In this document: positions 2,615 through 57,456 of the stretch, in pieces
Position numbering within the stretch: the first letter of the stretch is position 1
Layout of the letters: every line of letters begins with the position of its first letter
Source: Petrimonas mucosa
GTDB lineage: Bacteria; Bacteroidota; Bacteroidia; Bacteroidales; Dysgonomonadaceae
Assembly: GCF_900095795.1 (NCBI RefSeq)
Contig: NZ_LT608328.1
Span: 3,465,001 to 3,529,000, forward strand
Direction of reading: 5' to 3'
Length of the DNA: 64,000 bases
Translations under genes and position numbers: made by a program
Notes under the pieces: generated by a model
What the model was told of the DNA's origin: nothing
The model's input: the letters and a program-made list of their open reading frames with translations, nothing else
The model's database searches: none

Positions 2615-3613
2615 ATGAAGTTAAGAATTATTTTATCGGTACTCTTATCGGGATTTTTGTTTGTATCCCACGCCCAAATGAAAATTGGGATAATCGGGTT
2701 GGACACCTCCCACTCCATCGCTTTTACCAAATTTATAAATGGAGCGGATAAAAAGGAGGAATATAAAGATTTTCAGATTGTGGCAGCCTACCCGTATGGA
2801 TCCAAGTCCATTAAATCGAGCTACGATCGTATCCCCGGATACATCGAGCAAGTGAAAGAGATGGGCGTGGAGATTGTCTCTTCCATCCCGGAACTTTTGG
2901 ACAAGGTAGATTGCGTGTTGCTGGAGACGAACGACGGCAATCTGCATTTGGAACAGGCCTACGAGGTATTCAAGGCAGGAAAAATCATGTTTATTGACAA
3001 GCCAATAGGCGCGAACCTGGCCCAAGCTATCGCTATCTACGAGTTATCCAAAAAATACAATGTTCCCATCTTCTCTTCCTCTGCCTTGAGATATGTACCG
3101 GAGAGCCAAAAACTCCGCAATGGAGAGTTGGGGGAAGTACAAGGTGTTAACACGTACACGCCCGGGACGCTTGAACCGTCGCATGCCGATATGGCATGGT
3201 ATGGTATCCACGGCATTGAGGCACTGTTCACCGTAATGGGCACGGGGTGTGTATCCGTGAACCGGATGTCCTCCGAAGGATCGGATGTAATTGTAGGTCT
3301 TTGGGACGATGGAAGAATCGGCACCGTAAGAGCCATCCGGGAAGGACATAGGCCTTACGATGGGCATGCTTTCACCGATAAAGGGATCGTATCGACCGGT
3401 AAATACCAAGGTTATGAACCCTTATTGAGAGAGATATTAAACTTCTTCACGACCGGGATCCCCCCGGTGAGTGAAAAAGAGACATTGGAAATCTTCACCT
3501 TTATTGAAGCTGCTGACGAGAGTAAAGGCGCGAAGGGAAAGATAGTTTCAATGGAAGAGACCTTTAAAAAGGGAGCGAAAGATGCTCGGAAGCTAATCCG
3601 AAAATTAAAATAA
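2615..3613 (+). CDS. Exported Gfo/Idh/MocA family oxidoreductase
   Basis: A 332-residue NAD(P)-dependent oxidoreductase-like protein. A signal peptide (about residues 1-20, ending SHAQ) precedes the Rossmann strand MKIGIIGLDTSHS. The conserved lysine of the family is in the variant motif FIDKPIGA at about 129, equivalent to the usual EKP. The GLDTSHS loop replaces the common GxGxxG, which marks a separate subgroup often found next to other Gfo/Idh proteins. It follows nagB by 40 bp and precedes another Gfo/Idh gene by 9 bp. Export to the periplasm is inferred from the leader; the sugar substrate is unknown. Confidence 0.85.
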   Translation: MKLRIILSVLLSGFLFVSHAQMKIGIIGLDTSHSIAFTKFINGADKKEEYKDFQIVAAYPYGSKSIKSSYDRIPGYIEQVKEMGVEIVSSIPELLDKVDCVLLETNDGNLHLEQAYEVFKAGKIMFIDKPIGANLAQAIAIYELSKKYNVPIFSSSALRYVPESQKLRNGELGEVQGVNTYTPGTLEPSHADMAWYGIHGIEALFTVMGTGCVSVNRMSSEGSDVIVGLWDDGRIGTVRAIREGHRPYDGHAFTDKGIVSTGKYQGYEPLLREILNFFTTGIPPVSEKETLEIFTFIEAADESKGAKGKIVSMEETFKKGAKDARKLIRKLK

Positions 3614-3622: not shown

Positions 3623-5044
3623 ATGAAAAAATGTTTCACCATCATCGCTGCTATAACTCTTTTATTGGTATCCTGTACCGGGAAAACCAATAAAACGGAC
3701 ATGAATCAAACAGTGTTTACGGGAGAAGCGGGGGAGGTAAAACTAATTATCCTCGCGCCGGGTCATTTCCATGCCAGCTTGCTTCAAAAAAGCAGGATGG
3801 AGCAAGTGAATGACTCGGTGCAGGTTTATGCAGCCGCCGAAGATGCCGGACTGCGCCAATATCTCTCCGCGATCGAATCATTTAACCAACGGGAACAAGA
3901 TCCTACTCATTGGAATACAATCCTCTACACGGGTAACGATTTTCTTGAAAGGATGGTATCCGATAAAAAAGGAAACGTGGTTGTCCTCGCGGGGAATAAC
4001 CGGGATAAAACCGAGTATATTCGGGCCGCCGTAGAGGCGGGGGTAAACGTGTTATCGGACAAGCCAATGGCGATAAGCCCTGCAGATTTCCGCTTGCTGG
4101 AAGAGGCATACCAAGTTGCCGATTCGAAAAACGTGATGCTCTATGATATGATGACCGAGCGATACGATATGCTTAACATAATTGAAAGAGAGCTGATCAA
4201 CGATTCCGATCTTTTCGGGGAGTTACAACCGGGAACACCGGATGATCCTGCCGTTTACATGGAAAGCGTTCATCATTTTTACAAAGAGGTGTCAGGTGCC
4301 CCGCTGATTCGTCCCGCTTGGTATTACGATGTAGAACAACAGGGAGAAGGAATTGCCGACGTGACCACCCACTTAATTGATCAGCTGTTTTGGAAATGCT
4401 TCCCAGCTGAGCCGATCAACTATCAACAGGATGTTGGGAATATATCATCCACGCACTGGGCCACGGAGATCACCCTTGCTCAATTCAAGCGATCAACCGG
4501 GGAAGCTAGTTTCCCGGGTTATTTGCAAAAACAGCTTGACAATGGGTTATTAAAGGTGTTTGCCAACGGCACCGTCGTTTTTGATGTAAAGGGTAGCCAC
4601 GTGGGCTTGAAAGTCCTTTGGAATTGGGAAGCGCCCGAGGGAGGTGGCGACACTTTCGTATCCGAAATAAAGGGCACCAAGGCGATACTACGGACAGAAC
4701 AAAACAGAGAGCAAGGGTTCGTGAAACAGTTGTATGTTCAACGACCGAATGATATCGACAAGAGTGCTTTCGAAGAGAATTTAACGAAGTCCATTAACAA
4801 ATTACAAGCGAACTATCCCTTTATCTCTTGTTCGAAAACCGGATCCGAGGGGTCGTACTTGGTCAATATTCCCCGAGAAAACAGAGAGGGACATGAGTCG
4901 CATTTCACGTACGTGGCCGAGCGGTTTTTCCAATATTTGGTCGATCGTGATATGCCGGAGTGGGAAATTTCAAACACGTTGGCAAAATATTTCATCACCA
5001 CAAAGGCAGTAGAGGAGGCCAGAACAACAGACAACAATGAATAG
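3623..5044 (+). CDS. Lipoprotein oxidoreductase, Gfo/Idh/MocA type with long C-terminal domain
   Basis: A 473-residue lipoprotein: the leader ends in the lipobox LLVSC with Cys18 as acylation site. The N-terminal Rossmann part starts LIILAPGHFHASLL, an unusual GHFHA loop, and the conserved lysine lies in LSDKPMAIS at about residue 147. The second half fits the oxidoreductase C-terminal domain found with this subgroup. Its last 8 bp overlap the start of the DoxX gene, so the two are probably translationally coupled. A membrane-anchored periplasmic sugar oxidoreductase is the best reading; cofactor use outside the cytoplasm would need a tightly bound nucleotide. Confidence 0.82.
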   Translation: MKKCFTIIAAITLLLVSCTGKTNKTDMNQTVFTGEAGEVKLIILAPGHFHASLLQKSRMEQVNDSVQVYAAAEDAGLRQYLSAIESFNQREQDPTHWNTILYTGNDFLERMVSDKKGNVVVLAGNNRDKTEYIRAAVEAGVNVLSDKPMAISPADFRLLEEAYQVADSKNVMLYDMMTERYDMLNIIERELINDSDLFGELQPGTPDDPAVYMESVHHFYKEVSGAPLIRPAWYYDVEQQGEGIADVTTHLIDQLFWKCFPAEPINYQQDVGNISSTHWATEITLAQFKRSTGEASFPGYLQKQLDNGLLKVFANGTVVFDVKGSHVGLKVLWNWEAPEGGGDTFVSEIKGTKAILRTEQNREQGFVKQLYVQRPNDIDKSAFEENLTKSINKLQANYPFISCSKTGSEGSYLVNIPRENREGHESHFTYVAERFFQYLVDRDMPEWEISNTLAKYFITTKAVEEARTTDNNE

Positions 5045-5540
5045 CGAAAAAACATACACGAAATCGCAACTGGCCTTTTTACTGGTCCTACGATTCGCGA
5101 TAGGATGGCACGTGTTGTACGAGGGGATATCAAAAGTACTCAATCCCCAGTGGACATCCGCTAATTTTCTACAAGAGTCGAAAGGTATCTTATCAGGCCT
5201 TTCAAGTTGGATTATTTCGAACGCCGATGTACTCGCCGTCGTCGACTTTTTAAACGTGTGGGGACTGGTTTTAATTGGGCTCGGTATTCTATTTGGGTTC
5301 CTTTTTAAGCCCGCCGCTATCGCCGGATCCATTTTGATATTTATCTATTACTTATCCGTGCCCCCCCTCGTTGGATATGAATACACGCTTCCTACCGATG
5401 GAAGCAATTTGGTGGTAAATAGAACACTCATAGAAGCGATCGCGCTTTTTGGATTGATACTGTTTCCAACAAATAAAATTTTCGGATTAGATTATTTTAT
5501 CTATTCTCGTAAGAAAGGAAAACTCCATTATGGAAGATAG
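5037..5540 (+). CDS. DoxX family integral membrane protein
   Basis: A 167-residue protein with about four hydrophobic segments. The first contains LRFAIGWHVLYEGISKVLNP, the typical DoxX opening with GWHxLYEGxxK. The gene overlaps its upstream neighbour by 8 bp and its downstream neighbour by 11 bp, and both neighbours are exported Gfo/Idh/MocA proteins. DoxX proteins are poorly characterised; some are tied to quinone or thiol redox chemistry. The tight sandwich suggests it serves as the membrane partner of these oxidoreductases, possibly as electron acceptor. That role is inference. Confidence 0.87.
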   Translation: MNSEKTYTKSQLAFLLVLRFAIGWHVLYEGISKVLNPQWTSANFLQESKGILSGLSSWIISNADVLAVVDFLNVWGLVLIGLGILFGFLFKPAAIAGSILIFIYYLSVPPLVGYEYTLPTDGSNLVVNRTLIEAIALFGLILFPTNKIFGLDYFIYSRKKGKLHYGR

Positions 5541-7134
5541 TAACAAGAAAGAGAGGGAGAACCTCGAGAGCCAACCTTCGCAAGATAAGCCTGAACAAAA
5601 GCCGGCAAAAGACATTTCGCGGCGAAACGCGTTGAAAGCGTTCGCGGGGATACCTGTTGCCGGAATATTTGGCTACGAATTGTTCAAGAAAATCAATCAC
5701 GACACGGGTAAAAGGGACCGTATCACACGTGAACTTGGCCTGGATAAAATGGAATTCCCTATTCCCGATTACGGGAAAAAGGGTTCCCCCGATATTCTTC
5801 GGGTAGGCATAATCGGATTCGGGCGTCGCGCTGAACAGCTCTCTGCTGCTCTCGGATTCATGCACCCCGAGGAGGTAAAAAGAAGAAAAAACAATAATAG
5901 CCTGCAGAGCTGGCTTGAACAGGAGGATCTTGGCGTTGCTATTACTGGAATTTGCGATGTATTCGATCTGCACGCTGAACATGGTATGACCATCGCTAAC
6001 AACAGCCTGCGTCACGGGGCATCGAAGCTCCCTATCAAACGCTATCGCACGTACCAAGATATGCTTGCCGACAAAGATATTGACGCGGTTATTATTTCCA
6101 CACCGGATCATCATCATGGTTTCATGGCAATTGATGCCGTTAGGGCAGGAAAACACGTTTATCTTGAAAAAAGTGTCGCGCACACCGAGGAAGAGTTGAA
6201 CTTATTATACAACACGGTAAAAGAGAGCAATATTACTTTCCAGCTGGGCCATCAAATAACGCAGAGTACCGTTTTCAAACAGGCAAAAGAGATTATCGAC
6301 AAGAACGTGTTGGGTAAGATTACCCTGATTGAGACCACCAGTAATCGCAATACCGCCGAGGGTGCCTGGATCCGGCATTTAGATGCGGACGGGAATCTAA
6401 AGCCGGGCGATGAAAAGAGCATCGACTGGGAACAATGGCTAGGGAACACCCCCTATGTGCCTTTCAGTGTCGACCGGTTCTACAACTGGACAAAATGGTT
6501 TGCTTACGGTACCGGATTAATTGGCCAGCTATTTACCCATGAGTTCGACGCGGTAAATCAACTCATGCGAATTGGCATTCCTCATTCGGTCTCCTCATCG
6601 GGAGGGATATACTATTGGAAAGACAATAGAGAGATACCCGATAGCCTGCATTGCGTATTTGAATACCCCGATAAAGATTTAACCCTGTTATATAGCGGGA
6701 ATCTGGCATCCAGTAGAAGCCGGGGACGTGTATTCATGGGGCACGACGCTTCAATGGAACTCGGGAACAACATTAAAATAACGGTCGATAGAAACTCAAC
6801 GCAGTACAGGAAAGGGATATCATCCGGGTTAATTGAAACTTCATCACCCATGCTTACTTTCAATCCCGGTGCCGGACAAATCGACGCGGTGACTTCTGCT
6901 TCAGAAAAGTACTACGCTGATCGCGGATTGACCAACACGGTGATCAATGGACGGCAAATTGACGTTACCCATTTGCACGTGCGCGAGTGGCTGGATTGCA
7001 TCCGAGAAAATAAAACTACCAGCGCGAACATAGAGGTCGCCTACGAAGAGGGGATTGCCTGCTTAATGGCGCACCGTTCATATCTTGAAAAACGTCAAAT
7101 GTTTTGGGACGCAGAAAACAGAAAAATCGTTTAA
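5530..7134 (+). CDS. Tat-exported Gfo/Idh/MocA family oxidoreductase
   Basis: A 534-residue protein. After a hydrophilic 28-residue lead there is a twin-arginine signal (SRRNALKAF, Arg31-Arg32) followed by a hydrophobic stretch. Tat export fits a protein folded around a bound nucleotide. The Rossmann start is LRVGIIGFGRRAEQ, and the STPDHHHGFMAIDAV segment is typical. The conserved EKP motif reads YLEKSVAH, with Ser in place of Pro, while the lysine is kept. The start overlaps the DoxX gene by 11 bp. The extra length over the usual 430-450 residues lies mainly in the leader and a C-terminal part with unknown role. Confidence 0.88.
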   Translation: MEDSNKKERENLESQPSQDKPEQKPAKDISRRNALKAFAGIPVAGIFGYELFKKINHDTGKRDRITRELGLDKMEFPIPDYGKKGSPDILRVGIIGFGRRAEQLSAALGFMHPEEVKRRKNNNSLQSWLEQEDLGVAITGICDVFDLHAEHGMTIANNSLRHGASKLPIKRYRTYQDMLADKDIDAVIISTPDHHHGFMAIDAVRAGKHVYLEKSVAHTEEELNLLYNTVKESNITFQLGHQITQSTVFKQAKEIIDKNVLGKITLIETTSNRNTAEGAWIRHLDADGNLKPGDEKSIDWEQWLGNTPYVPFSVDRFYNWTKWFAYGTGLIGQLFTHEFDAVNQLMRIGIPHSVSSSGGIYYWKDNREIPDSLHCVFEYPDKDLTLLYSGNLASSRSRGRVFMGHDASMELGNNIKITVDRNSTQYRKGISSGLIETSSPMLTFNPGAGQIDAVTSASEKYYADRGLTNTVINGRQIDVTHLHVREWLDCIRENKTTSANIEVAYEEGIACLMAHRSYLEKRQMFWDAENRKIV

Positions 7135-7179
7135 AATCAAAGAGTAATACAATAAAAAACGTTTGAAAAATATAACAAT

Positions 7180-8535
7180 ATGACAACAAGAAGACAATTT
7201 ATTAAAAATGTAGCCATAGGAACTGCCGCGGTTTCCGCGAGTAAAGTAGGCGGTGTTTTACCCAGCTTCAGCGCGTCGAGTTACCGAAACATCGTGGGTG
7301 CTAATGATCGCATCCGCATCGCGGGTATTGGTGTAAATGCCAGAGGCAACGCGTTGGCTAGAGGATTCGCCAACGAAAAGGAGCGGGGTTGCGTCGTGAC
7401 CGATATTTGTGACGTAGACTCGAGAGCGATAGAAAAGGGAATTAAAACGGTTCAAGATGCAGCCGGCAACAAGCCAAGAGGGCATGAGGATATTCGAAAG
7501 ATGCTGGAATCGAACGATTTCGATGCTGTTTTTATAGCTACTCCTGACCATTGGCACGCTCCGGCCGCATTGATGGCCATGAAAGCAGGAAAGCATGTTT
7601 ACCTGGAAAAGCCAACCAGCCATAGCCCCGAGGAGAATGAAATCTTGATCGCTGCTGAAAAAAAGTACCGGAAGGTAGTCCAAGTCGGCAACCAACGCCG
7701 TTCATGGCCAAACGTGGCACATGCCATAAAAGAGATCCACGATGGCGTGATTGGTGAAGTTCATTACGGGAAAAGCTGGTATTACAACAAACGCCCTTCC
7801 ATGGGAACCGGAAATGTTATTTCTCCCCCCGATTGGCTGAACTGGGAACTTTGGCAAGGGCCTGCCCCTCGCGTCGACTATAAAGACAATATTGTTCATT
7901 ACAACTGGCACTGGGTGTGGCATTGGGGAACCGGTGAAGCACTGAATAACGGCATGCACTTTGTGGATCTTCTTCGCTGGGGCATGAAGCTCGATTATCC
8001 CGTGTCGGTGGATTCCATCGGTGGCAGGTACCACTATCAGGACGACTGGGAAACACCCGACACCCAACTGGTCAACTTCAAGTTTGCCAACGGCAAAGTG
8101 ATGACCTGGGAAAGCCAAAGCTGCGTTCGTTCAAGTATATCAGGACATGGCAGTGGAGTAACTTTCTACGGGGATAAAGGTAGCCTCACGATAGGAGGCG
8201 GTAATGAATACAGGGTGTTTGACCTGGATAATAAACTGGTTAAACACGTGGATAGCAAGATGGTATTCGAAGAAGGGAACCTGGTGAATCCCACGCAAAG
8301 CCTTGATGCATACCACTTCCAAAACTTTTTCGACGCCATTCGTAAAGGAGAAAAATTAAACTCTCCCCTCACCGAAGCATGCATAAGTACACAATTGGTA
8401 CAGCTATCTAATATTTCACACCGGGTAGGAAGATCGTTAAATATCGATCAAAGAAAAGGTACTATCGTGAAAGATAGAGAAGCGAACAAACTGTGGAAAA
8501 GAGATTATGCAAAGGGTTGGGAAATGAAAGTATAA
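7180..8535 (+). CDS. Tat-exported Gfo/Idh/MocA family oxidoreductase
   Basis: A 451-residue protein with an immediate twin-arginine signal (MTTRRQFIKN, Arg4-Arg5). It has the Rossmann region IRIAGIGVNARGNAL, the substrate-side segment TPDHWHAPAALMAMKAG and the canonical motif HVYLEKPTSH with the catalytic lysine near residue 143. A second half rich in Trp and His (YNWHWVWHWGTGEALNNG) is typical of the Bacteroidota subgroup often linked to glycoside oxidation. It lies 45 bp after the previous oxidoreductase gene and 15 bp before the HGSNAT-like gene, so it is probably co-transcribed. Confidence 0.92.
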   Translation: MTTRRQFIKNVAIGTAAVSASKVGGVLPSFSASSYRNIVGANDRIRIAGIGVNARGNALARGFANEKERGCVVTDICDVDSRAIEKGIKTVQDAAGNKPRGHEDIRKMLESNDFDAVFIATPDHWHAPAALMAMKAGKHVYLEKPTSHSPEENEILIAAEKKYRKVVQVGNQRRSWPNVAHAIKEIHDGVIGEVHYGKSWYYNKRPSMGTGNVISPPDWLNWELWQGPAPRVDYKDNIVHYNWHWVWHWGTGEALNNGMHFVDLLRWGMKLDYPVSVDSIGGRYHYQDDWETPDTQLVNFKFANGKVMTWESQSCVRSSISGHGSGVTFYGDKGSLTIGGGNEYRVFDLDNKLVKHVDSKMVFEEGNLVNPTQSLDAYHFQNFFDAIRKGEKLNSPLTEACISTQLVQLSNISHRVGRSLNIDQRKGTIVKDREANKLWKRDYAKGWEMKV

Positions 8536-8550
8536 CATATATCCTGCTCT

Positions 8551-9669
8551 ATGAATAAAGAGGCTATCACGCGAGATAAATCCCGGGTGCGTTCCATTGA
8601 CGCGCTCCGGGGTTTTGATATGTTTTGGATTATGGGAATTGGCAGCGTGATAGTTCGTATGGCTGCCATTGAAAACACACCATTTTGGAGCGGGTTCGCC
8701 GCTCAGTTCGAACACCCGTACTGGAATGGTTTCACGCTATGGGATATGATTTTCCCCCTGTTTATGTTCCTGTCGGGCATGTCATCCCCTTTCTCTATCG
8801 ACAAACAACTGGAAAGCGGAAGAACTCGCAAGCAAATATTGTGGAAGGTCGTAAAGCGGGGCCTCATACTCATATTACTGGGCATCATCTACAACACGAA
8901 AGGAATTGAGTTACGGCCTCTCACGGAATACCGATACGCGAGTGTACTGGGTAAAATTGGTGCAAGCTATGTTTTCGCGAACATCATCTATTTATACGCT
9001 AAACCCAATGCCAGAATTGTATGGTATGGGGCGTTGCTTATCGGGTATTGGCTGTTATTGAAATTCACCGCGGCTCCCGGATTCCCGGCGGGTGACCTCA
9101 CGGAAGCGGGTAACTTTGCCTCCTACTTCGATCGGATCGTGTTACCGGGAGTATTGTCACGAGAAATTCACGATACCGTGGGTTTACTCTGTACCATCAC
9201 GGGAGTATCCACCACCCTACTGGGAGTGCTCGCGGGAAGTTTTTTAAAGAAACACCCGATGGCCCCGATCAAAAAGACGCTGTGGTTTTGTATTGCCGGC
9301 GTGGGACTAATTTTGCTGGGACTCCTTTGGAATCTTGATTTCCCGATCAATAAAAACTTGTGGTCGAGCTCCTATACAGTACTTACAGGCGGTATTAGCC
9401 TATTGTTGTTCGCTCTTTTTTACTACATCATCGACATCAAGGGGTATTATAAATGGTCCTTCTTCTTTAGAGTAATTGGCATGAACTCGATATTTATCTA
9501 CTTATCGCCAATCTTCATTAACTACTCCTATATTGCCAGGGCAGGCCTTCGATGGGTGGGGCAGTTAGCCGGCCCGTACGAAGCCCCGGTAATGGGACTT
9601 TGTACCGTATTCGTGTCGTGGCTGGTATTGTACTTCATGTACAAGAAAAAGATTTTTATTAAAGTATAA
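8551..9669 (+). CDS. HGSNAT-like (DUF5009-type) membrane acetyltransferase
   Basis: A 372-residue membrane protein with about ten hydrophobic segments. The family opening RSIDALRGFDMFWIMGIGS is clear, and FEHPYWNGFTLWDMIFPLF holds the conserved His (about residue 55) that serves as acetyl carrier in heparan-alpha-glucosaminide N-acetyltransferase. Characterised relatives move acetyl groups from cytoplasmic acetyl-CoA across the membrane to amino groups of glucosamine ends. With nagA/nagB in the same cluster, acetylation of periplasmic glucosamine-containing oligosaccharides before uptake is a plausible role, but this is inferred from context. 15 bp after the oxidoreductase gene. Confidence 0.85.
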   Translation: MNKEAITRDKSRVRSIDALRGFDMFWIMGIGSVIVRMAAIENTPFWSGFAAQFEHPYWNGFTLWDMIFPLFMFLSGMSSPFSIDKQLESGRTRKQILWKVVKRGLILILLGIIYNTKGIELRPLTEYRYASVLGKIGASYVFANIIYLYAKPNARIVWYGALLIGYWLLLKFTAAPGFPAGDLTEAGNFASYFDRIVLPGVLSREIHDTVGLLCTITGVSTTLLGVLAGSFLKKHPMAPIKKTLWFCIAGVGLILLGLLWNLDFPINKNLWSSSYTVLTGGISLLLFALFYYIIDIKGYYKWSFFFRVIGMNSIFIYLSPIFINYSYIARAGLRWVGQLAGPYEAPVMGLCTVFVSWLVLYFMYKKKIFIKV

Positions 9670-9672
9670 CCG

Positions 9673-10821
9673 TTGAAAACCTCCATCTCTTATATCGTAT
9701 TGCTCGTTTGCCTGTTTATTGTAGAACATGCAATTAGTCAATCGTACTATCACGAATATAGGAGGAAAAGCAACGCCTGGAGTAACCTATCCTCCTGTTT
9801 TAAACCTCCGGAACATCTAGAAGATCAACTGGGTGATTACCGATCTCCACTTATGTTTTATGATGGGCAAACCGTGGAAACGAAGGAAGATTGGACAAAA
9901 CGTCGTGATGAAATTCGCTCACGGTGGATGAATATGATGGGCGAATGGCCTTCGATACTAGAAGAGCAGGAGTTTGATATTGTTGATGAAGAGAAGATAG
10001 AATCTTTTACGCGTTATAGAGTGCGATTTTATTGGACTCCAAATGAACAGACCGAAGGTTACTTATTTGTACCTGACAAAGAAGGAGAGAAGCCGGCTGT
10101 AATTTCCGTGTTTTATGAGCCTGAAACCGCCGCTGGAATAGGAGGGAAACCATACAGGGACTTTGCATATCAATTAGCCAGAAGAGGATTCGTTACATTA
10201 TCATTGGGTACTTCGGAAACGACAAAAAACAGGACCTACTCTATGTACTATCCTACCAGAGAAGATGCAGACATTCAACCTTTATCCCTATTGGCATATG
10301 CTGCCTCGAATGCCTTAGAAGCATTGGCAAAAATGGACGATGTTAACGCGGATAAAATCGGTATAGTGGGACATTCTTACGGTGGGAAATGGGCCATGTT
10401 TGCATCCTGCCTATACGATAAGTTCGCCGCTGCGGCATGGAGCGATCCGGGCATCGTATTCGACGAAACCAAGGGATCGGCGGTTAACTACTGGGAACCG
10501 TGGTACCTGGGCTACTACCCTCCTCCCTGGGAAAAAATATGGAGCAAAACCGGAGAGCAAGCCAAAGGACTCTATCCGAGATTGCGTGAGGAAGGATTCG
10601 ACCTGCACGAATTACACGCGCTTATGGCACCACGTCCTTTTTTGGTCTCAGGCGGCTCATCTGATCCTATTGAAAGGTGGATTCCACTGAACCACACCAT
10701 CGCGGTCAACAATCTACTAGGATATACCCAGCGGGTTGCCATGAGTAATAGAGCGGAACATAGCCCCGATGCGCATTCAAATGAAATTATCTATTCATTT
10801 TTTGAATGGTTTTTGAAATAA
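9673..10821 (+). CDS. Secreted alpha/beta-hydrolase, acetylxylan-esterase/dienelactone-hydrolase type
   Basis: A 382-residue exported hydrolase. Translation most likely starts at TTG 9673, only 3 bp after the previous stop, because the residues from there form a good signal peptide (MKTSISYIVLLVCLFIVEHA). The nucleophile elbow is IGIVGHSYGGKWAM (Ser around residue 236). A late GGSSDPIERW and AEHSPDAHS supply the likely acid and His of the triad. Family members are esterases or peptidase-like hydrolases; an acyl-sugar or xylan-type deacetylase fits the neighbourhood. Codon use is somewhat more AT-rich than in the flanking oxidoreductase genes. Confidence 0.8.
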   Translation: MKTSISYIVLLVCLFIVEHAISQSYYHEYRRKSNAWSNLSSCFKPPEHLEDQLGDYRSPLMFYDGQTVETKEDWTKRRDEIRSRWMNMMGEWPSILEEQEFDIVDEEKIESFTRYRVRFYWTPNEQTEGYLFVPDKEGEKPAVISVFYEPETAAGIGGKPYRDFAYQLARRGFVTLSLGTSETTKNRTYSMYYPTREDADIQPLSLLAYAASNALEALAKMDDVNADKIGIVGHSYGGKWAMFASCLYDKFAAAAWSDPGIVFDETKGSAVNYWEPWYLGYYPPPWEKIWSKTGEQAKGLYPRLREEGFDLHELHALMAPRPFLVSGGSSDPIERWIPLNHTIAVNNLLGYTQRVAMSNRAEHSPDAHSNEIIYSFFEWFLK

Positions 10822-14547: not shown

Positions 14548-14555
14548 TAAATTTG
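14548..14555 (+). promoter_or_regulatory. Putative -7 box of IS4 copy 1 transposase
   Basis: TAAATTTG matches the Bacteroidota -7 consensus TAnnTTTG and lies 27 bp before the ATG at 14583. Upstream, GGGAC (around 14517) can pair with GTCCC (around 14536), and a nested GACTT/AAGTC pair lies inside. No good -33 TTTG is visible at the right distance, so this is moderate evidence. Confidence 0.4.
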
Positions 14556-14582
14556 GATTGTCTAAAAACTAAATTTCCAACC

Positions 14583-15812
14583 ATGGGCAAAGATAAGTCA
14601 AAAAATTTAGTCGGTCAGCCACTGTTCAAACAAATTGTGAAAATGTTGCCAAAAGATGAATTTGATCTCTTGGTGTCGAAGTGCGGGAGCGACCGTTACT
14701 ATAAAACATTTTTTTCTTGGGAACAGCTTATAGTGATGCTCTTCGGCATCTTTTCACGTTGCGATTCCATGGGGGAAGTCTGTGACGGGATGCGGGCATT
14801 GGGTGGGAAGCTGAATTACCTTGGTATGGACGTGGCTCCTGCAAAGAGCACGGCGGGCGACGCTTTGCGTGATCGTGATGAAGAACTTTTCAGGCTATAT
14901 TATTTTGCCCTGATATCCTATTTTCGTCCGCTTTTATCGGTCAGCCGAAAAAAAGACGTCAGTTTCGATGAGTTTTACGCTTTCGATTCCACCACGATGA
15001 CCCTTTTTTCACAAGTGATGCAAGGGGTGGGACGCAACCCCAAGGGTGAAGGCAAGAAAAAAGGAGGCATGAAAGTACACATGCTGACCGACGTGCACAC
15101 GGAGACGGCCGTTTTTGCCAAGATCAGCGAGGCAAAAATGCATGACAAGAAGTTCCTGGCACATTTAAATCCCGGAAGGGGTAGCATGTTGGTCTTTGAC
15201 AAGGCATATAATTACTACCTGCAATTTGCTGAATGGACACTACAGGGCGTGAATTTTGTTTGTCGCTTGAAGGATAATGCCAAAGTGCAGGTGCAGGAGG
15301 TTTTGTTTGAAAGGACGCTCTCCAAAGAAGAGTTCGGCGTTTACAAGGTCGAACACATCCATTTGGATTACAAACAAGATAAGCAGGTAAAAACGGTTTG
15401 TTTGCGATTGGTTCATTATAAAGATGAGCAGAAACGAAAATATAAGTTCATAACCAACAATTGGTCGATAACGCCCCAAGAGGTTGCTTTGATTTACAAG
15501 TATCGCTGGACTATCGAGCTATCGTTCAAAAAATTGAAACAGAACTTTCAACTGCATTTTTTCTATTCGGATACGGAGAATGGTATAAAAACGCAGGTTT
15601 GGTGCACGTTGATCGCACATTTGTTGCTTCAAGTCATCCAGGTGGTGAATGAAAGCAAGAAAGCGTTCTCAACTATTGCAGCTTTGATAAGGATACACCT
15701 GATAAGTCATTTGGAGTTGGCTTGGGTGGTGACCGAAGGCAGAAAGGCATACACTAAACGGGGAAAAAGACGGAACAAAAGTCCCACGGCCATACAAATG
15801 TCGTTGTTTTAA
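14583..15812 (+). CDS. IS4-family DDE transposase
   Basis: A 409-residue transposase starting MGKDKSKNLVGQPLF. The DDE core has DEFYAFDSTTMTLF (first Asp), MLVFDKAYNYY (second Asp) and the IS4 signature Y-(2)-R-(3)-E-(6)-K in YKYRWTIELSFKKLKQ. The N-terminal FFSWEQLIVMLFGIFSRCDS block is the DUF4372-type domain of Bacteroidota IS4 elements. I chose the ATG at 14583 rather than an upstream TTG at 14553 because the latter lies in the presumed -7 box and the shorter form matches the start of the second copy (MGKVSENKFVGQPIL). Confidence 0.95.
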   Translation: MGKDKSKNLVGQPLFKQIVKMLPKDEFDLLVSKCGSDRYYKTFFSWEQLIVMLFGIFSRCDSMGEVCDGMRALGGKLNYLGMDVAPAKSTAGDALRDRDEELFRLYYFALISYFRPLLSVSRKKDVSFDEFYAFDSTTMTLFSQVMQGVGRNPKGEGKKKGGMKVHMLTDVHTETAVFAKISEAKMHDKKFLAHLNPGRGSMLVFDKAYNYYLQFAEWTLQGVNFVCRLKDNAKVQVQEVLFERTLSKEEFGVYKVEHIHLDYKQDKQVKTVCLRLVHYKDEQKRKYKFITNNWSITPQEVALIYKYRWTIELSFKKLKQNFQLHFFYSDTENGIKTQVWCTLIAHLLLQVIQVVNESKKAFSTIAALIRIHLISHLELAWVVTEGRKAYTKRGKRRNKSPTAIQMSLF

Positions 15813-17528: not shown

Positions 17529-18275
17529 ATGAAAACAATTCATCTGTTTTTTTTCAGCGCGATGATTAGCTGCTTTTGCCTACAAGTGACTGCAAAAGAG
17601 AGTTACAAGAGTCCTATCGCGGGGAATGAAGATTTAATGGCCAGGAGCCAATGGCAACCACTTTTCAAAACGGCCAAAGACACTGTGCATTGGACAAGCA
17701 TACGCGACACTCCCTTCCCGAACGAAGGCTGGGTGGTTAAAAAGAAAGAACTGGTACTACTCCCGGGGCGAAAAGGAGGAGATATTATCACGAAAAGAAA
17801 ATACAGGGATTTTGAATTTACATTGGAGTTTAAAATGACCCGACTGGTTAACTCCGGGGTAAAATATTTTGTGAACCAAATCGAAAACAACCAGAATGGA
17901 AGAATGGAGTGGATCGGGTTCGAGTACCAGATAATCGATGATTTCCATCAGGACGAGATTCAAGGTTTTGACGATGAAAAAGGTTCTACAGCCGCGCTCT
18001 ACCTGCTTTACGCGCCCAACGAAAATAAAAAACTAAAGCCACTGGGGAAATGGAACTCGTTGAAAATTAAAGTCGAAGGAAATAAAGTCGAGCACTGGCT
18101 AAATGGAGAGTTGGTAGTAATCATGGATATCGATTCACAAGATTTTAAGGATCGAGTAGAGGAGACGAAATTCAGGAATTACGACGACTTCGGCAAAAAA
18201 CGAGAGGGGCATATCCTCCTACAGGACCATGGAGATCAAGTTCATTACAGGAATATCATGATTAAAGAGCTATAA
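17529..18275 (+). CDS. DUF1080 (3-keto-disaccharide hydrolase-like) exported protein
   Basis: A 248-residue protein with a signal peptide (MKTIHLFFFSAMISCFCLQV, cleavage after TAK). The mature part has the concanavalin-like beta-sandwich pattern of DUF1080: NEGWVVKKKELVLLPG, then DFEFTLEFKMTRLVNSGVKY, GFEYQIIDD, GKWNSLKIKVEGNKVEHWLN and GHILLQDHGDQVHYRNI near the C-terminus. Members of this family have been linked to cleavage of 3-keto glycosides made by Gfo/Idh/MocA oxidases, which fits the gene just upstream. The 151-bp gap before it is AT-rich and contains TATTTTTG (17436-17443), a possible -7 box without a convincing -33 box. Confidence 0.88.
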   Translation: MKTIHLFFFSAMISCFCLQVTAKESYKSPIAGNEDLMARSQWQPLFKTAKDTVHWTSIRDTPFPNEGWVVKKKELVLLPGRKGGDIITKRKYRDFEFTLEFKMTRLVNSGVKYFVNQIENNQNGRMEWIGFEYQIIDDFHQDEIQGFDDEKGSTAALYLLYAPNENKKLKPLGKWNSLKIKVEGNKVEHWLNGELVVIMDIDSQDFKDRVEETKFRNYDDFGKKREGHILLQDHGDQVHYRNIMIKEL

Positions 18276-18336: not shown

Positions 18337-18472
18337 GGTGAAGCACTGTGGAAGCAGGGTGAAGCACTGTGGAAGAATGATGAAGCTATAAGGAAGAATG
18401 ATGAAGGATAATGAAGTTATGAGAAAGAATGATAAAGCTATGAAAAAGATCGGTAAAGCCATGATAAAGAAT
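18337..18472 (+). repeat. Degenerate 21-bp tandem repeat over a translation start
   Basis: Six head-to-tail units lie at 18337-18357, 18358-18378, 18379-18399, 18400-18430 (this one with a 10-bp extra GATAATGAAG), 18431-18451 and 18452-18472. The consensus is roughly GRTGAAGCTATGAGGAAGAAT. Units 1 and 2 are nearly identical and later ones diverge. The array ends inside the signal-peptide codons of the DUF4886 gene, and each later unit carries an in-frame ATG, so several alternative starts (MRKNDKA, MKKIGKA, MIKNG) are created. This looks like slippage or minisatellite growth. Confidence 0.85.
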
Positions 18473-19396
18473 GGTTTAATCTTCGGGGTATTAATTATTC
18501 TGACTACCCTCAATGCTTGGTCGCAGGATACAATACGAGTACTCGCTATTGGCAACAGTTTTTCGGTCGACGCGGTAGAAAACAATTTATTTGAGCTGGG
18601 ACAAGAACAAGGGGTCACCTTTATCATCGGTAACTTATATATCGGAGGCTGTTCGCTTGAGAGGCATTGGGAGAACGCGCAGAACAACAAGGCCGACTAT
18701 TCGTATCGTAAGATCGATAGCGAGGGGAAAAAAAACACCTCTCCTAATGCAACCCTTATTCAGGGCATAACGGACGAAGAGTGGGATTACATCACTTTTC
18801 AGCAAAATAGCCCAAACTCGGGATTCATCGACACCTATTTCCCCTATTTGGCTCAATTAACGGCTTTCACGAAAAAACAGACGAGTAATCCGCGCGTTAA
18901 ATTCGCATTCCACCAGACTTGGGCATACGCGAATGATTCAAACCATTCAGGATTTCCACGGTACAATAGCGATCAGGCACAAATGTATCACGCGATCGTG
19001 AAAACATCACGGGAGGCCGCTCGCGAAGTTGGCATCGAAAGAATCATCCCCGCGGGAACCGCTATCCAAAACGGGCGATCGAGCTTTATCGGAGATCGTT
19101 TTTGCCGTGACGGGTATCACCTGAGCTTAGACTTGGGACGTTACACTGCTGCCTGTACTTGGTTCGAATTTCTTACCGGTAAATCGGTGGTGGGTAACCC
19201 CTTTTCCCCACGCACGATTACACCTCTTGAGGCCACCACCGTTCAGCGAGCGGCTCACGAAGCGGTGCTAAACCCATTTGAAATAACGTCTATCGATTTA
19301 GAGAATGAGCTGGCCTCATCGGGTCTGGCTTCATCGGATATTATTGAAAGAAACTCCGAATTAAGCTCCCTAGAATGCCAGGAGCAAAGCTTATAG
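18461..19396 (+). CDS. DUF4886 (SGNH-hydrolase-like) exported protein, probably a truncated N-terminal module
   Basis: An SGNH-type hydrolase of 311 residues from ATG 18461, where MIKNGLIFGVLIILTTLNAW forms a signal peptide. Upstream in-frame ATGs from 18398 only add repeat-encoded residues. Block I is VLAIGNSFSVDAVENNL with the candidate Ser, WDYITFQQNSPNSG is the central region, and FCRDGYHLSLDLGRYTAACT supplies Asp/His. The C-terminus is abnormal: it reads DIIERNSELS and then a short junk tail to a stop. The same ten residues occur again in the reading frame of the next gene, so the two were probably one protein (see the repeat at 19337-19431). Confidence 0.82.
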   Translation: MIKNGLIFGVLIILTTLNAWSQDTIRVLAIGNSFSVDAVENNLFELGQEQGVTFIIGNLYIGGCSLERHWENAQNNKADYSYRKIDSEGKKNTSPNATLIQGITDEEWDYITFQQNSPNSGFIDTYFPYLAQLTAFTKKQTSNPRVKFAFHQTWAYANDSNHSGFPRYNSDQAQMYHAIVKTSREAAREVGIERIIPAGTAIQNGRSSFIGDRFCRDGYHLSLDLGRYTAACTWFEFLTGKSVVGNPFSPRTITPLEATTVQRAAHEAVLNPFEITSIDLENELASSGLASSDIIERNSELSSLECQEQSL

Positions 19397-23053: not shown

Positions 23054-23084
23054 TTTGCCCATCGTACTAATAATTGTAGCTTTG
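23054..23084 (+). promoter_or_regulatory. Bacteroidota-type promoter of the IS4 transposase
   Basis: TTTG at 23054-23057 and TAGCTTTG at 23077-23084 are separated by 19 bp, an exact match to the -33/-7 arrangement. The -33 box lies in the right arm of a short inverted repeat, GGGCAAA (23041-23047) and TTTGCCC (23054-23060). Since transcription would start downstream of 23084, the transposase must start at ATG 23109, not further upstream. Confidence 0.6.
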
Positions 23085-23108
23085 TATTTAGCACAAAACA
23101 AGACTACA

Positions 23109-24323
23109 ATGAACAAAAGTACTTATTTTTTCGGACAATCGGTTTTCGGACAGCTCATATCTATGATAGATTCAGGAATCATCGCTCGAAACAGCAAACG
23201 CCACAAGGCTGATCATTACGTGAAACGTTTCATGGCCAAGGATCACCTCATAAGCATGTTATTTTGTGTTTTCGCCAAATGCTCCTCCCTGCGAGAGGTG
23301 GCGGGCGCAATGCTCGGTCTTTCAGGCAAGACCAGGCATTTCCAACTCGGCCACATACCCTACAGGAGCACATTGTCGGACGCCAACAAGCGCCGGAGTG
23401 TTGATTTCTTCTCGGGCGTGTATCACGATTTGCTCCGCGAGTATCAACACGTGATCTCGGACACCCGGTTCAAGGCCGTGTTGAACAAGCAGGTCGAGAT
23501 CTTCGACAGCACGGTCATCAGCTTGTTTCAGGACATCCTGAAGTGCGTCGGCAGAACACCCTCTAACGGTAAACGCAAAGGGGGGATCAAGGTGCACACC
23601 GTCATCAATGTGGACGAGCCCGTTCCCAAGATGGTATGGTTCACGTCCGCCGCCACGCACGACCACGCGCTGTTGAAGAAACTCAGCCCCGACGACAACA
23701 CCATTTACGTCTTCGACAAGGGATACAACGACTACAAGGCCTTCAAGCTGTTCGGCAAGAAGGGGGCCGGCTTCGTCACCCGCATCAAGGACGACGCCGT
23801 TTACAAGGTGGAACAAGAGCTTCACGTTGAAGAATGTATTCATAGCGGCGTGCTGGAGGACACCATCATAGAGGTGACCGTCAAGGAGGACGATGGGCAG
23901 GGCAAGCTGATGTTGCGCAAGGTGGTGTTCTACGACAGGGTGTTGAAACGCAAGTTCGAGTTCCTCACCAACCTGTTCGACCTTCGTCCCGACATGATAG
24001 CCGCCCTTTACAAGATTAGATGGCAAATTGAATTGCTGTTCAGGCAGTTAAAAGGTAACTTCCCCTTGAAGTACTTCCTCGGGGACAACGAGAACGCGAT
24101 AAAAACACAGATATATTGCGCCTTGATCGTGAACCTCTTGCTCACGGTTGTTCAAAAGCGGTTGAAACGGCGCTGGGCATTCTCGAACCTGGTATCATTT
24201 TGCAGGATACACCTGTTCAATTACTTGCATTTGATGAGATTTTTAGAAAATCCGGAACGAGACTGGCAACGGGATGACAAGAATTTAGGGATGCTCACCC
24301 TTTTCAGGGGGGCTTACTTTTGA
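23109..24323 (+). CDS. IS4-family DDE transposase
   Basis: A 404-residue transposase starting MNKSTYFFGQSVFGQLISMI. DDE residues are in VEIFDSTVISLF and IYVFDKGYNDY, and the IS4 YREK signature is YKIRWQIELLFRQLKG. The N-terminal FMAKDHLISMLFCVFAKCSS block matches the same domain as in the other IS4 transposases here, but the sequence belongs to a different group. Its codon use is GC-richer than the surrounding operon, consistent with independent origin. The gene appears intact. Confidence 0.95.
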   Translation: MNKSTYFFGQSVFGQLISMIDSGIIARNSKRHKADHYVKRFMAKDHLISMLFCVFAKCSSLREVAGAMLGLSGKTRHFQLGHIPYRSTLSDANKRRSVDFFSGVYHDLLREYQHVISDTRFKAVLNKQVEIFDSTVISLFQDILKCVGRTPSNGKRKGGIKVHTVINVDEPVPKMVWFTSAATHDHALLKKLSPDDNTIYVFDKGYNDYKAFKLFGKKGAGFVTRIKDDAVYKVEQELHVEECIHSGVLEDTIIEVTVKEDDGQGKLMLRKVVFYDRVLKRKFEFLTNLFDLRPDMIAALYKIRWQIELLFRQLKGNFPLKYFLGDNENAIKTQIYCALIVNLLLTVVQKRLKRRWAFSNLVSFCRIHLFNYLHLMRFLENPERDWQRDDKNLGMLTLFRGAYF

Positions 24324-25810: not shown

Positions 25811-27460
25811 ATGCAAGAAAACAAAGAAAATCCGAACGAGCTTCTCGAACTCCTTTTGGAGAAATGCGACCGTTTATACCAGGAGAACATGCTCCTGAAG
25901 GGTAAACTGGAAGATCGCACGGATGTTGATGCATTAAAATCCTCTTACGAGAAAACCCTGTCCGAGAAGGATACCAGGATCGTCGACCTGGAAAAGCAGG
26001 TAGCTTATCTCAGGCGCCGCATATGGGGTAAATCCAGCGAGCGTTATATCCAGGCAGATCCACAGCAACGACGAATAGACTTTGACGGCCTTGACCTGTT
26101 GCCCGGGGAAATAGAGCTTGCAGAGGCAGCCAGGGAAGAGATAGAAGCCTTCAGGGAAAGACGCGTGAAGGAGCGGGTGAAACGAAAACCGGTTCGCAAG
26201 CCTTTACCCGAAGACCTACCTCGTATTGAGGAGCACCTTTACCCCGCTGAAATTAGTGACAACAAGGATGCATGGACCGAGCTGGAGCCCGAGATCACCG
26301 AAGTGCTGGAGTATGAACCCGGGAAATGCTATGTCAGGAAGATTGTCCGTCATAAATATGTTTTAAAAAACAAGCCATCACAGGAGTCTGGAGAGGAGCC
26401 TTCTCCCATTGTTACGGCATCCCTGCCGACAAGATACCGGCCTATCGCACGCAGCTATGCCGGAGCCTCACTTTTGGCGGAGCTGATGATAAACAAGTAT
26501 GTAAATCATCTCCCTTTTTACCGCCAGATACAGATGATGAAGCAGATGGGTGCCAATCTGCCACCACCCACGGTCAATGATTGGTTCAAAGATACGGCCG
26601 ATTTACTAAGACCGCTTTATTATCGTCTCAAGGAGCTCGTTCTTGCCACCGATTACATCCAGGTGGACGAGACAACCGTGCCCGTGATCAATAACGAGAA
26701 GCATAAAACCGTCAATGGATACATGTGGATGGTGCGTTCCGTCATGGACTCACAGCTCTTCTTCCATTATGACCATGGTTCAAGGGCCCAGAATGTTGCC
26801 TTGTCCCTGTTGAAAGACTTCAGTGGTGCCATGCAGACGGACGGGTACGGCGTGTACAAGATCTACGAGCAGAAACTGGGCGTACTGCCCCTTGGATGTT
26901 GGGCCCATGCCAGAAGGAAGTTTGAAGAGTCATTGAAAAATGACAGGTCCAGGGCCGAATATGCCCTTGAGCAGATCGGCCTTCTCTACGAGGTGGAAAG
27001 GGAAGCCGATGATAAGAAACTCTCTTGCCAGGAGAGGGCGAATCTCAGGGAGAGTCATGCTTACCCCATCATGGTTGCCTTTGAAAAGTGGCTGGTGCGT
27101 GAATATGAAAAGGTTCTGCCCAAGAGCCCGATAGGAAAGGCGATAAAGTACACTTATGACATCTACCACCGTTTGACACGTTACCACCTGGATGGCAGAT
27201 ACCGCATTGACAATAATCTCGCCGAAAACAGCCTGAGAGGCCTGGCCCTGGGAAGAAAGAATTACCTTTTTTGCGGTAACCATGATGCTGCCGAGGATGC
27301 TGCAGTCATGTATTCATTGCTGGGGTGCTGCAAGGCTGCCGATGTGAACTTCCGTGACTGGATGGTTTATGTGCTGAGTCGTATCCACGACTATGACGAA
27401 GACTACACCAGAGATCTTGCAGAACTGCTCCCGGGCAACTACTCCAGGAGAAACCCCTAA
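25811..27460 (+). CDS. tnpC: IS66-family DDE transposase TnpC
   Basis: A 549-residue transposase. An N-terminal coiled coil (residues about 1-70) leads into VAYLRRRIWGKSSERYI, then a zinc-finger-like/linker segment with PEITEVLEYEPGKCYVRKIV. The catalytic core has DYIQVDETTVPVINNEK (first Asp), MQTDGYGVYKIYEQ (second Asp) and YRIDNNLAENSLRGLALGRK (Glu). LFCGNHDAAEDAAVMYSLL is the typical C-terminus. The gene is intact, unlike its counterpart at 49893-51411. Confidence 0.97.
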   Translation: MQENKENPNELLELLLEKCDRLYQENMLLKGKLEDRTDVDALKSSYEKTLSEKDTRIVDLEKQVAYLRRRIWGKSSERYIQADPQQRRIDFDGLDLLPGEIELAEAAREEIEAFRERRVKERVKRKPVRKPLPEDLPRIEEHLYPAEISDNKDAWTELEPEITEVLEYEPGKCYVRKIVRHKYVLKNKPSQESGEEPSPIVTASLPTRYRPIARSYAGASLLAELMINKYVNHLPFYRQIQMMKQMGANLPPPTVNDWFKDTADLLRPLYYRLKELVLATDYIQVDETTVPVINNEKHKTVNGYMWMVRSVMDSQLFFHYDHGSRAQNVALSLLKDFSGAMQTDGYGVYKIYEQKLGVLPLGCWAHARRKFEESLKNDRSRAEYALEQIGLLYEVEREADDKKLSCQERANLRESHAYPIMVAFEKWLVREYEKVLPKSPIGKAIKYTYDIYHRLTRYHLDGRYRIDNNLAENSLRGLALGRKNYLFCGNHDAAEDAAVMYSLLGCCKAADVNFRDWMVYVLSRIHDYDEDYTRDLAELLPGNYSRRNP

Positions 27461-55714: not shown

Positions 55715-56077
55715 ATGGGTCTTAACCTGCAACGCATCCGGAGATACCTGGGAGTTAAACAGACCACACTTGCAGCTGAACTCGGCATGAGCCAGCCGGA
55801 GATATCGAGGCTCGAACGTCAGAAAGTGATCGACGGAGAGCGGCTGCAGCAGATCTCCGATATACTGGGCATTTCGCCAGAAGTGATCATAACTTTCGAC
55901 GTCAACAAAACCATTTCAACCATCAACGCTTCACCGGCAGGACAAAACAAGAGAGTGACTGGGAAGCCCGACCTGTCTGAGAAGATCGTGGAGCTCTACG
56001 AGCGACTATTGGAGAGTGAACGGGAGAAAGGTAAACTGATGGAGCAACATGGAGAGACATATCGGACGAAAAATTGA
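55715..56077 (+). CDS. XRE-family HTH regulator with C-terminal coiled coil
   Basis: From ATG 55715 this gives 120 residues; a GTG start at 55682 would add 11. The HTH of XRE/Cro type covers about residues 1-60: LNLQRIRRYLGVKQTTLAAE, LGMSQPEISRLERQ and LQQISDILGISPEVIITF. After a linker, LSEKIVELYERLLESEREKG is a likely dimerising helix. The last 29 bp overlap the next gene, so the two are probably translated together. Targets are unknown; the direct repeats upstream suggest self-control. Confidence 0.85.
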   Translation: MGLNLQRIRRYLGVKQTTLAAELGMSQPEISRLERQKVIDGERLQQISDILGISPEVIITFDVNKTISTINASPAGQNKRVTGKPDLSEKIVELYERLLESEREKGKLMEQHGETYRTKN

Positions 56078-56336: not shown

Positions 56337-56339
56337 AAA

Positions 56340-56368: not shown

Positions 56369-56388
56369 CCGATTGCTTCTCCTGCCGA

Positions 56389-57432: not shown

Positions 57433-57456
57433 AGTTCAATTTGCAGTTTAGATAGT

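Follow-up and report, generated by a model that had tools for sequence, protein, structure and literature searches.

Conserved pairing of a DoxX-family membrane protein with a predicted exported sugar-oxidising-type enzyme carrying a shared anchor helix

In many bacteria a small membrane protein (DoxX) was found to travel with an exported sugar-oxidising-type enzyme that carries a shared anchor helix, which suggests a new way for enzymes outside the cell membrane to pass electrons from sugars into it, although the electron step itself is untested. The window analysed was a stretch of 64,000 nucleotides from Petrimonas mucosa, in which a lipoprotein oxidoreductase (Gfo1, 3623-5044), DoxX (5037-5540) and a second oxidoreductase (Gfo2, 5530-7134) lie consecutively on the + strand. 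The conserved unit is DoxX plus the downstream Gfo2 and not the triplet: of 109 DoxX loci, including that of the window, 94 have Gfo2 downstream, 4 have a Gfo gene upstream, 9 have DoxX fused to another head, 1 ends at a contig edge and 1 has no partner.

The preliminary description of this region had reported that DoxX overlaps its two neighbours by 8 bp and 11 bp, and this observation is correct, the overlaps lying at 5037-5044 and 5530-5540, respectively. Overlap as such is however weak evidence, as 19 of 91 DoxX-Gfo2 pairs overlap, 55 are 0-20 bp apart and 17 are further apart when the first ATG within 45 residues upstream of the twin arginine (RR) is taken as the start; the strong evidence is the conserved adjacency and the shared helix. 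Profile searches assigned Gfo1 to PF16490 (364.9 bits) with a match to PF01408 (33.0 bits) covering only profile positions 53-115 of 120, DoxX (167 aa) to PF07681 (27.7 bits, cut-off 23.6) and Gfo2 (534 aa) to PF01408 (53.8 bits, cut-off 24). Gfo1 has a lipobox (LLVSC, read by eye) and belongs with the PF16490 proteins represented by PDB 4oo3, a “hypothetical protein” (473 bits). Five exported Gfo/Idh/MocA genes, a GH109 relative and a sixth Tat-leader relic had also been described in the window; five Gfo-type ORFs were found on the + strand (starting at 2615, 3623, 5530, 7180 and 15956) and one GH109 relative on the - strand (34145-35515), whereas the relic was not checked, a single narrow pattern being no test of it.

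The interpretation offered previously, a periplasmic sugar-oxidising unit of two secreted oxidoreductases, one lipid-anchored and one Tat-exported, coupled to DoxX as a membrane electron outlet, is supported only in part. Conservation of the Gfo-DoxX-Gfo order in other genomes had been put forward as its test, and the comparison supported DoxX with the RR-leader oxidoreductase as a real, widely conserved unit but did not support the symmetrical arrangement: Gfo1 lies upstream in a few close relatives (loci L002, L005 and L031; L numbers denote the DoxX loci compared) and was not found in the roughly 1.5 kb upstream of DoxX in two others (L003 and L004). Gfo1 is a local addition and not part of the conserved core. 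The Tat-exported partner is better read as a helix-anchored partner. A predicted contact between the proteins had likewise been named as decisive, but none could be shown, since in a model of a DoxX fusion (pTM 0.56) the RR helix and linker lie at pLDDT of about 50 or less, no complex was modelled and co-evolution was not analysed because too few pairs were at hand. DoxX as an outlet for the electrons, probably to quinone, is plausible but remains an inference.

The 109 loci comprised 29 of a set of 30, L028 being omitted as a DoxX hit under 60 bits, and a further 80 that are the best of at least 557 confirmed and therefore favour DoxX proteins close to that of the window; the window's own locus (L001) and two places taken to be represented twice (L022/L032 and L007/L075) are included. 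As the sample was based on DoxX, heads without DoxX were not counted. The DoxX alignment contained the window and 21 of the 30 loci, leaving out L001 (self), L003-L006 and L016 (near-copies), L007 and L011 (a stop in the match) and L028 (a fragment). The Gfo2 alignment contained the window and 60 of 80 references, which were themselves selected from 95 by dropping 15 and keeping only rows with RR followed 8-10 residues later by P or A; the presence of RR in 61 of 61 rows is thus partly by construction, and the one row dropped for lacking RR (L026) has its N-terminus cut off by the end of the locus.

DoxX is a four-helix membrane protein, N-in/C-in by its charge pattern, and is the constant partner of the module. 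No Cys column exceeded 5 of 22 rows in its alignment and no His was invariant (at most 16 of 22), hence it has no obvious redox centre of its own. No PDB relative was found by sequence at E values up to 1. The two other PF07681 proteins of the genome lie outside this subfamily, and no Gfo-type neighbour was found in the 6-7 kb around each.

Gfo2 fulfils the sequence criteria of a Gfo/Idh/MocA oxidoreductase, with the NAD motif (G96, G98), E213, the catalytic lysine (K214) and the catalytic histidine (H337) retained in 61 of 61 rows, and its model matches the fold. Its best PDB sequence matches were 8tdh and 8tdf, the Alistipes glucoside-3-dehydrogenase AL3 (88 bits). However, it does not reach the NCBIfam glycoside 3-dehydrogenase equivalog (BT_2158_fam, NF058561; 112.4 of 750 bits), and in Foldseek searches other Gfo enzymes ranked above the glucoside 3-dehydrogenase, the matches including GFOR (1rye, 1h6d) and DgpA (7xre). 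Oxidation of the C3-OH of glycosides was not assayed, and is suggested only by homology and by linkage to DUF1080 genes.

The RR leader of Gfo2 looks more like an uncleaved anchor helix than a cleavable Tat peptide: the model shows one helix at residues 31-68 (5620-5733, + strand), and a signal-peptidase AxA site was present within residues 47-70 in only 8 of 61 rows. This helix is similar to the linker of the DoxX fusions. A 28-residue profile built only from the fusions found 93 of 108 Gfo2-type N-termini (ORFs over 250 bits, containing copies, the window's own among them), and its six other hits were DoxX partners or pieces of them. This profile test was relied upon because leader conservation was not proof by itself; against a small set of control Tat leaders, the Gfo2 leader was clearly better conserved only at 30-40% body identity (0.468 against 0.285, 17 control pairs) and not at 40-50% (0.463 against 0.52, 3 pairs) or 50-60% (0.538 against 0.583, 19 pairs). 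On a quick DoxX tree, from which L001, L007, L032, L122, L123 and L124 were left out as copies, head type required 2 changes against 22.3 for shuffled labels.

The head of the fusions resembles an aldo-keto reductase (AKR), the top Foldseek matches of its model being 4exb and 4exa (TM by target 0.75-0.77, 12-14% identity). Other TIM barrels also matched (for example OMP decarboxylase, to 0.69), the head had no Pfam match and the AKR catalytic tetrad Asp-Tyr-Lys-His was not mapped, so that membership of the AKR superfamily is left undecided and the head is referred to as AKR-like. The neighbours of three fusion loci (L057, L077 and L082), examined by eye, showed no shared gene cluster.

The surroundings of the unit fit sugar oxidation. 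On the + strand of the window an amidohydrolase, NagA-type by context (PF01979, 603-1793), a NagB-type glucosamine-6-phosphate isomerase family protein (PF01182, 1774-2574) and Gfo0, a Gfo/Idh/MocA-like protein with a signal-like N-terminus by eye (2615-3613), precede Gfo1, and Gfo3, a Tat-leader Gfo/Idh/MocA protein (7180-8535), and a NagX-like transmembrane acetyltransferase relative (8551-9669; 287.6 bits, below the equivalog cut-off of 480) follow Gfo2; Gfo0 and Gfo3 are likely in the same operon. A 3-keto-disaccharide hydrolase gene (PF06439/DUF1080, 17529-18275, + strand) lies beyond a transposase gene here but directly after the NagX-like gene in the related cluster L031. Such genes lie near the unit about ten times more often than expected, with 11 observed against 1.02 expected in 29 loci (P 1.2e-8), and in each of the 5 genomes with a single PF06439 match it lies in the cluster. 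The 29 loci were taken from 33 with full flanks (L039, L042, L077 and L082 were left out; none had a DUF1080 hit), and as only hits over 50 bits to one DUF1080 query were counted, while the expectation used the more sensitive PF06439 count, the enrichment is if anything low.

Of 30 genomes searched, TatC was found in 29, the exception being G643 (1.4 Mb; G numbers denote genomes). The search for quinone biosynthesis gave a mixed result: a menaquinone-route gene was found in 22 of 30 genomes (menB over cut-off in 17, PF02621 in 5 others), whereas 8 showed neither, two of them (G013 and G034) listed as 99% complete; UbiA-type genes are present in those 8 but are not specific.

The explanation preferred, with moderate confidence, is that DoxX and Gfo2 form one inner-membrane enzyme, a membrane-docked exported glycoside (3-)dehydrogenase. 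In this view, DoxX is a four-helix bundle with both ends in the cytoplasm, and Gfo2 would be exported folded, probably by Tat with NAD bound, would stay attached by its uncleaved RR helix packing against DoxX as a fifth helix, and would oxidise a glycoside outside the membrane, most likely at C3 of a hexose and, in the Petrimonas-type cluster, probably an amino-sugar glycoside. The 3-keto product would be cut by a DUF1080 enzyme, isomerised and imported, and reduced again inside by another Gfo enzyme; because the bound NADH cannot exchange with the cytoplasm, DoxX would take the electrons and pass them to the quinone pool. The sequences establish the conserved pairing, a shared helix on two different heads, intact NAD-motif and catalytic residues, the DUF1080 linkage and TatC in 29 of 30 genomes, while bound NAD, C3 specificity, the substrate, Tat export, contact between helix and DoxX, electron transfer and quinone as acceptor are inferred. 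A further-reaching reading is possible but tentative, namely a new class of respiratory enzyme in which the permanently bound NAD of an extracytoplasmic dehydrogenase is reoxidised through a DoxX subunit into the quinone pool, with interchangeable Gfo/Idh/MocA or AKR-like heads docked by one conserved RR helix; DoxX would then be a general nicotinamide-to-quinone adaptor. To our knowledge, how exported nicotinamide enzymes regenerate their cofactor is unsettled for the 3-keto-glycoside pathway, and this unit names a membrane partner, a docking helix and a second, different head, so that the question becomes testable with one pair of genes. It would also give a redox role to one branch of the DoxX proteins and add a five-helix fusion family to the candidates for joint Sec-Tat insertion.

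Of the alternatives, the strongest, although considered unlikely, is that DoxX is only a membrane dock and Gfo2 is redox-neutral, its bound NAD being reduced by one sugar and reoxidised by another, as in glucose-fructose oxidoreductase, GH109 and DgpA, so that no electrons leave. This is consistent with the Foldseek matches to GFOR and DgpA, the lack of a conserved Cys or invariant His in DoxX and the GH109 genes flanking the unit in L032, but a mere dock does not readily explain why one DoxX subfamily serves two different nicotinamide-type folds or why DoxX is kept beside the head in 107 of 109 loci of this DoxX-based sample, in which heads without DoxX were not counted. Two further readings are each doubtful. 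In the first, quinol feeds electrons through DoxX to the exported head, which reduces a keto-sugar or another carbonyl, as MsrPQ uses respiratory-chain electrons for repair; the split and fused forms with an RR helix, as described for MsrPQ/NapGH relatives (PMC5449189), and the aldo-keto-reductase-like fold of the other head are in its favour, but the neighbouring DUF1080 genes fit oxidation outside and electron transfer from quinol to NAD+ is energetically uphill by the established redox potentials. In the second, DoxX carries a small molecule (keto-sugar, proton or nicotinamide) or hands electrons to O2 or a soluble carrier rather than to quinone; the function of most DoxX proteins is unproven and the 8 genomes without a detected quinone route would be consistent with this, although the Neomarinimicrobiota clusters already contain what reads by eye as an MFS carrier next to the pair. 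Ordinary operon packing without a joint function, for which only the low number of overlapping pairs speaks, is very unlikely, as adjacency in records named for many phyla, the fusions and the shared helix argue strongly against it.

A literature search for DoxX together with Gfo/Idh/MocA returned no papers, and related searches showed nothing on this pairing among the entries inspected. Gfo2 shares the Gfo/Idh/MocA fold with AL3 and with B. theta BT2158, a periplasmic glycoside 3-dehydrogenase (PMC11300592), but carries a docking helix with a DoxX partner. LacABC, a lactose 3-dehydrogenase named as three components lacABC, is a case of membrane-bound sugar 3-oxidation in the periplasm with DUF1080 nearby (PMC9007349); DoxX does not occur in the main text of either paper. 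MsrPQ, NapGH and the dual Sec-Tat five-helix proteins (PMC5449189, whose main text also does not mention DoxX) similarly combine a polytopic membrane partner with a Tat-type exported oxidoreductase, split or fused, with RR just before the last helix and positive charges after it, but have a heme or Fe-S membrane part where DoxX is found here and Moco or Fe-S heads in place of nicotinamide-type heads. The fused form of the present unit showed RR directly before the last helix in 23 of 23 fusions and an average of 3.13 K+R in the nine positions after it; the mean hydropathy of this helix was 1.23, within the range of the other helices (1.00-1.63), which does not settle whether it has the low hydrophobicity expected of such proteins. 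Tat dependence of insertion was not measured, the presence of TatC being only permissive. Thiosulfate:quinone oxidoreductase DoxDA and the mycobacterial DoxX membrane-associated oxidoreductase complex also place a DoxX/DoxD-type membrane protein in a redox complex, but with other partners, and the DoxX of the window does not reach the thiosulfate:quinone oxidoreductase equivalog (DoxD, NF041179; 18.6 of 300 bits). Finally, open frames of about 700 aa initially resembled a third type of head, but in the loci opened (L145, L146, L147, L148, L149 and L151) they were DoxX and Gfo2 as separate ORFs read through a stop.

The three ORFs were recovered at the positions assigned to them in the preliminary description, with Gfo1 (the lipoprotein oxidoreductase) at 3623-5044, DoxX at 5037-5540 and Gfo2 (the downstream oxidoreductase) at 5530-7134, and the reported overlaps of 8 and 11 bp were confirmed. 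Pfam assigned PF16490 (364.9 bits) to Gfo1, PF07681 DoxX (27.7 bits, cut-off 23.6) to the central gene and PF01408 (53.8 bits) to Gfo2. The surrounding + strand genes comprise NagA- and NagB-type genes, two further Gfo/Idh/MocA-type genes (Gfo0 and Gfo3), a NagX relative (287.6 bits, below its cut-off of 480) and an alpha/beta hydrolase. Further on come an esterase, a peptidase, a transposase, another Gfo gene (Gfo4) and a 3-keto-disaccharide hydrolase at 17529-18275, next to which lies a DUF4886 protein (351 bits) at 18398-19396. Transposase genes were identified at 14553-15812, 23055-24323 and 25811-27460, one lying between the DoxX cluster and the 3-keto-disaccharide hydrolase and two beyond it. 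A single ORF of 1163 aa at 19434-22925 matches a glucuronoyl-esterase-type domain, further alpha/beta hydrolase models and BNR_4, an unusual chain of carbohydrate-esterase-like domains. The G+C content of the stretch 56001-64000 is 0.56, against 0.38-0.49 in the rest of the window, with long overlapping ORFs on both strands, and this stretch was possibly acquired. The window is part of a 3.7-Mb single-contig genome, and the nearest named DoxX matches, although nearer records may be left out of that comparison, are those of Proteiniphilum sp. UBA4977 (81%) and Petrimonas sp. IBARAKI (71%).

Conservation of a Gfo-DoxX-Gfo gene order, which had been put forward at the outset as a test of the proposed unit, was assessed by searching for the DoxX of the window in other genomes. 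It was found in 21 of 61 genomes (itself and relatives) and in 11 of 296 genomes of a phylum sample (itself included, four of them weak). In named genomes at least 557 stretches were confirmed, of which 80 were retrieved; their records are named Bacteroidota, Aminicenantes, KSB1, Neomarinimicrobiota, Latescibacterota, Acidobacteria, Calditrichota, Chlorobiota and Planctomycetes (Sedimentisphaerales), among others, although MAG names may err. Of 109 loci examined (individual loci are designated by L numbers), 94 have a Gfo2 homologue directly downstream, 4 have a Gfo gene directly upstream (L026, L029, L079 and L104), 9 have DoxX fused to another domain, 1 ends at the contig edge (L088) and 1 (L052, positions 5145-9747) has neither Gfo2 nor a fused head, DoxX being followed there by ORFs that read as a transporter, a Gfo protein and a weakly DUF1080-like protein (24 bits). 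The upstream gene varies: it is Gfo1 in the window, L002, L005 and L031, GH109 in L022/L032 and of Gfo3 type in L037, L038, L039 and L105, whereas weak Gfo matches lie 250-400 bp off in L010, L012 and L014 and none was seen with these queries in most others. The conserved core is therefore DoxX-Gfo2, not Gfo-DoxX-Gfo, and the earlier interpretation, which coupled both exported oxidoreductases to DoxX as a periplasmic sugar-oxidising unit with a membrane electron outlet, is supported only in part. The two other PF07681 proteins of the same genome score 11.5 and 0.6 bits with the subfamily profile, and no Gfo-type gene was found in the 6-7 kb around each.

In the fused proteins DoxX is followed by a linker of the pattern RR-x-x-L-K-x-L-A-x-x-P-x-L-G and then by a head of about 300 residues. 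The same pattern opens Gfo2, with P42 in 61 of 61 aligned rows, K36 and G45 in 60 of 61 and RR in all, although RR and P count for less because rows were chosen to have RR and a P or A after it. Two tests tie the two together. First, a profile of nine fusions was run over 295 genomes of the order and hit through its linker columns alone in 42 listed places, each next to a DoxX match, with E values of 2.3e-10 to 2.6e-4 (2.7e-5 for the window's own). In 41 of the 42 the open frame is 495-577 aa, the size of Gfo2, but the frames were not each inspected, and since this search scores only pre-selected candidates it does not show absence elsewhere. Second, a 28-residue model built from 23 fusion linkers only was run over the N-termini of 6,293 ORFs from the loci collected at that stage and hit 93 of 108 Gfo2-type ORFs at E under 1e-3, missing 15, together with six others, namely four cut or split Gfo2 ORFs, a fusion fragment and the upstream DoxX partner of L079. 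The latter (L079:2777-4270) is a more distant Gfo protein (81 bits to Gfo2) that carries the helix at E 1.1e-4, so that the helix is not tied to close Gfo2 relatives. None of the 16 other Tat-leader Gfo proteins of the same loci (17 when the L079 partner is counted) was among the hits, and the helix is therefore a mark of DoxX partners. AxA occurs in residues 47-70 of only 8 of 61 rows, positive charges follow the helix and the predicted model shows one helix spanning residues 31-68 at pLDDT 62-79, so the helix was interpreted as an uncleaved anchor. Against 17 control Tat leaders the contrast in conservation is clear at low body identity only. Across 1,760 pairs, leader identity (51%) is close to body identity (53%), while the next stretch has 22%.

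Gfo2 is a Gfo/Idh/MocA enzyme with intact Gly-x-Gly, Glu-Lys and His in 61 of 61 rows; the residue four positions before that His, usually Asp in the family, is Asp in 40, Gln in 19 (the window's among them) and Asn in 2. Its best PDB sequence matches are 8tdh/8tdf, titled glucoside-3-dehydrogenase of Alistipes, but by fold RgNanOx, GFOR, levoglucosan dehydrogenase and DgpA match as well or better, so fold alone does not set the substrate. The fused head has no Pfam match. In its predicted model 18 of 28 ten-residue blocks of the head exceed pLDDT 85, and the best PDB matches are an aldo-keto reductase (4exb/4exa, TM by target 0.75-0.77), then L-galactose dehydrogenase and other TIM barrels such as OMP decarboxylase. 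As TIM barrels resemble each other, the designation AKR-like is a lead supported by rank rather than proof; if it is right, one DoxX subfamily serves two unrelated nicotinamide-type oxidoreductase folds. The genome of the window also holds an AKR-like head of the fused type without its DoxX part (L160:4279-6503, on the same contig outside the window; also L140), and since an insertion-sequence-like pair of ORFs lies directly upstream, the fusion gene looks disrupted. On a quick DoxX tree of 122 rows, in which 48 of 117 inner branches are poorly supported, the head label needs 2 changes against 22.3 for shuffled labels, indicating a stable partnership with rare switches.

DUF1080 (PF06439, 3-keto-disaccharide hydrolase) genes lie within the 8-kb flanks at 10 of 29 loci, amounting to 11 genes against 1.02 expected from genome-wide counts (P 1.2e-8), and in each of the 5 genomes with a single PF06439 match it is in this cluster. 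In six Neomarinimicrobiota-type loci (L072, L083, L085, L100, L108 and L109) the order is DoxX, Gfo2, a carrier of MFS type, another Gfo, DUF1080 and a protein, with an RR leader in most, taken to be a sugar isomerase, the carrier, second Gfo and isomerase having been assigned by manual examination. In L099 the order is DoxX-Gfo2-DUF1080. Periplasmic sugar 3-oxidation by LacABC goes with DUF1080 (PMC9007349), where DoxX is not mentioned. NagA and NagB relatives lie near the unit in L038, L039 and L049 as in the window, and GH109 genes in L032, which points to amino-sugar glycosides in this branch.

DoxX has positive charge at the N-terminus, the second loop and the C-terminus, and net negative first and third loops, hence an N-in/C-in arrangement in which an RR helix after it puts the head outside. 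Five-helix proteins with RR before the last helix that need both Sec and Tat have been described together with split relatives (PMC5449189), namely MsrPQ, which uses electrons from the respiratory chain, and NapGH, a quinol dehydrogenase; the DoxX unit shows the same split and fused forms and works like MsrPQ or NapGH in design, but is a member of neither. TatC is present in 29 of 30 carrier genomes searched. The module is firm, it being very likely that DoxX and the RR-helix head work as one unit, and sugar oxidation in a 3-keto pathway is likely for the Gfo2 form, whereas electron flow through DoxX is a reasonable inference, about as likely as not, that has not been tested. Outside the cytoplasm a bound NADH must be reoxidised either by another sugar or by a membrane partner, for which DoxX is the constant candidate. 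Support for quinone as the acceptor is moderate, with menB over cut-off in 17 and PF02621 in 5 other genomes of 30, while 8 showed neither; a UbiA-type gene is in each of those 8, but this is not specific. DoxX has no conserved Cys, so a disulfide route is unlikely.
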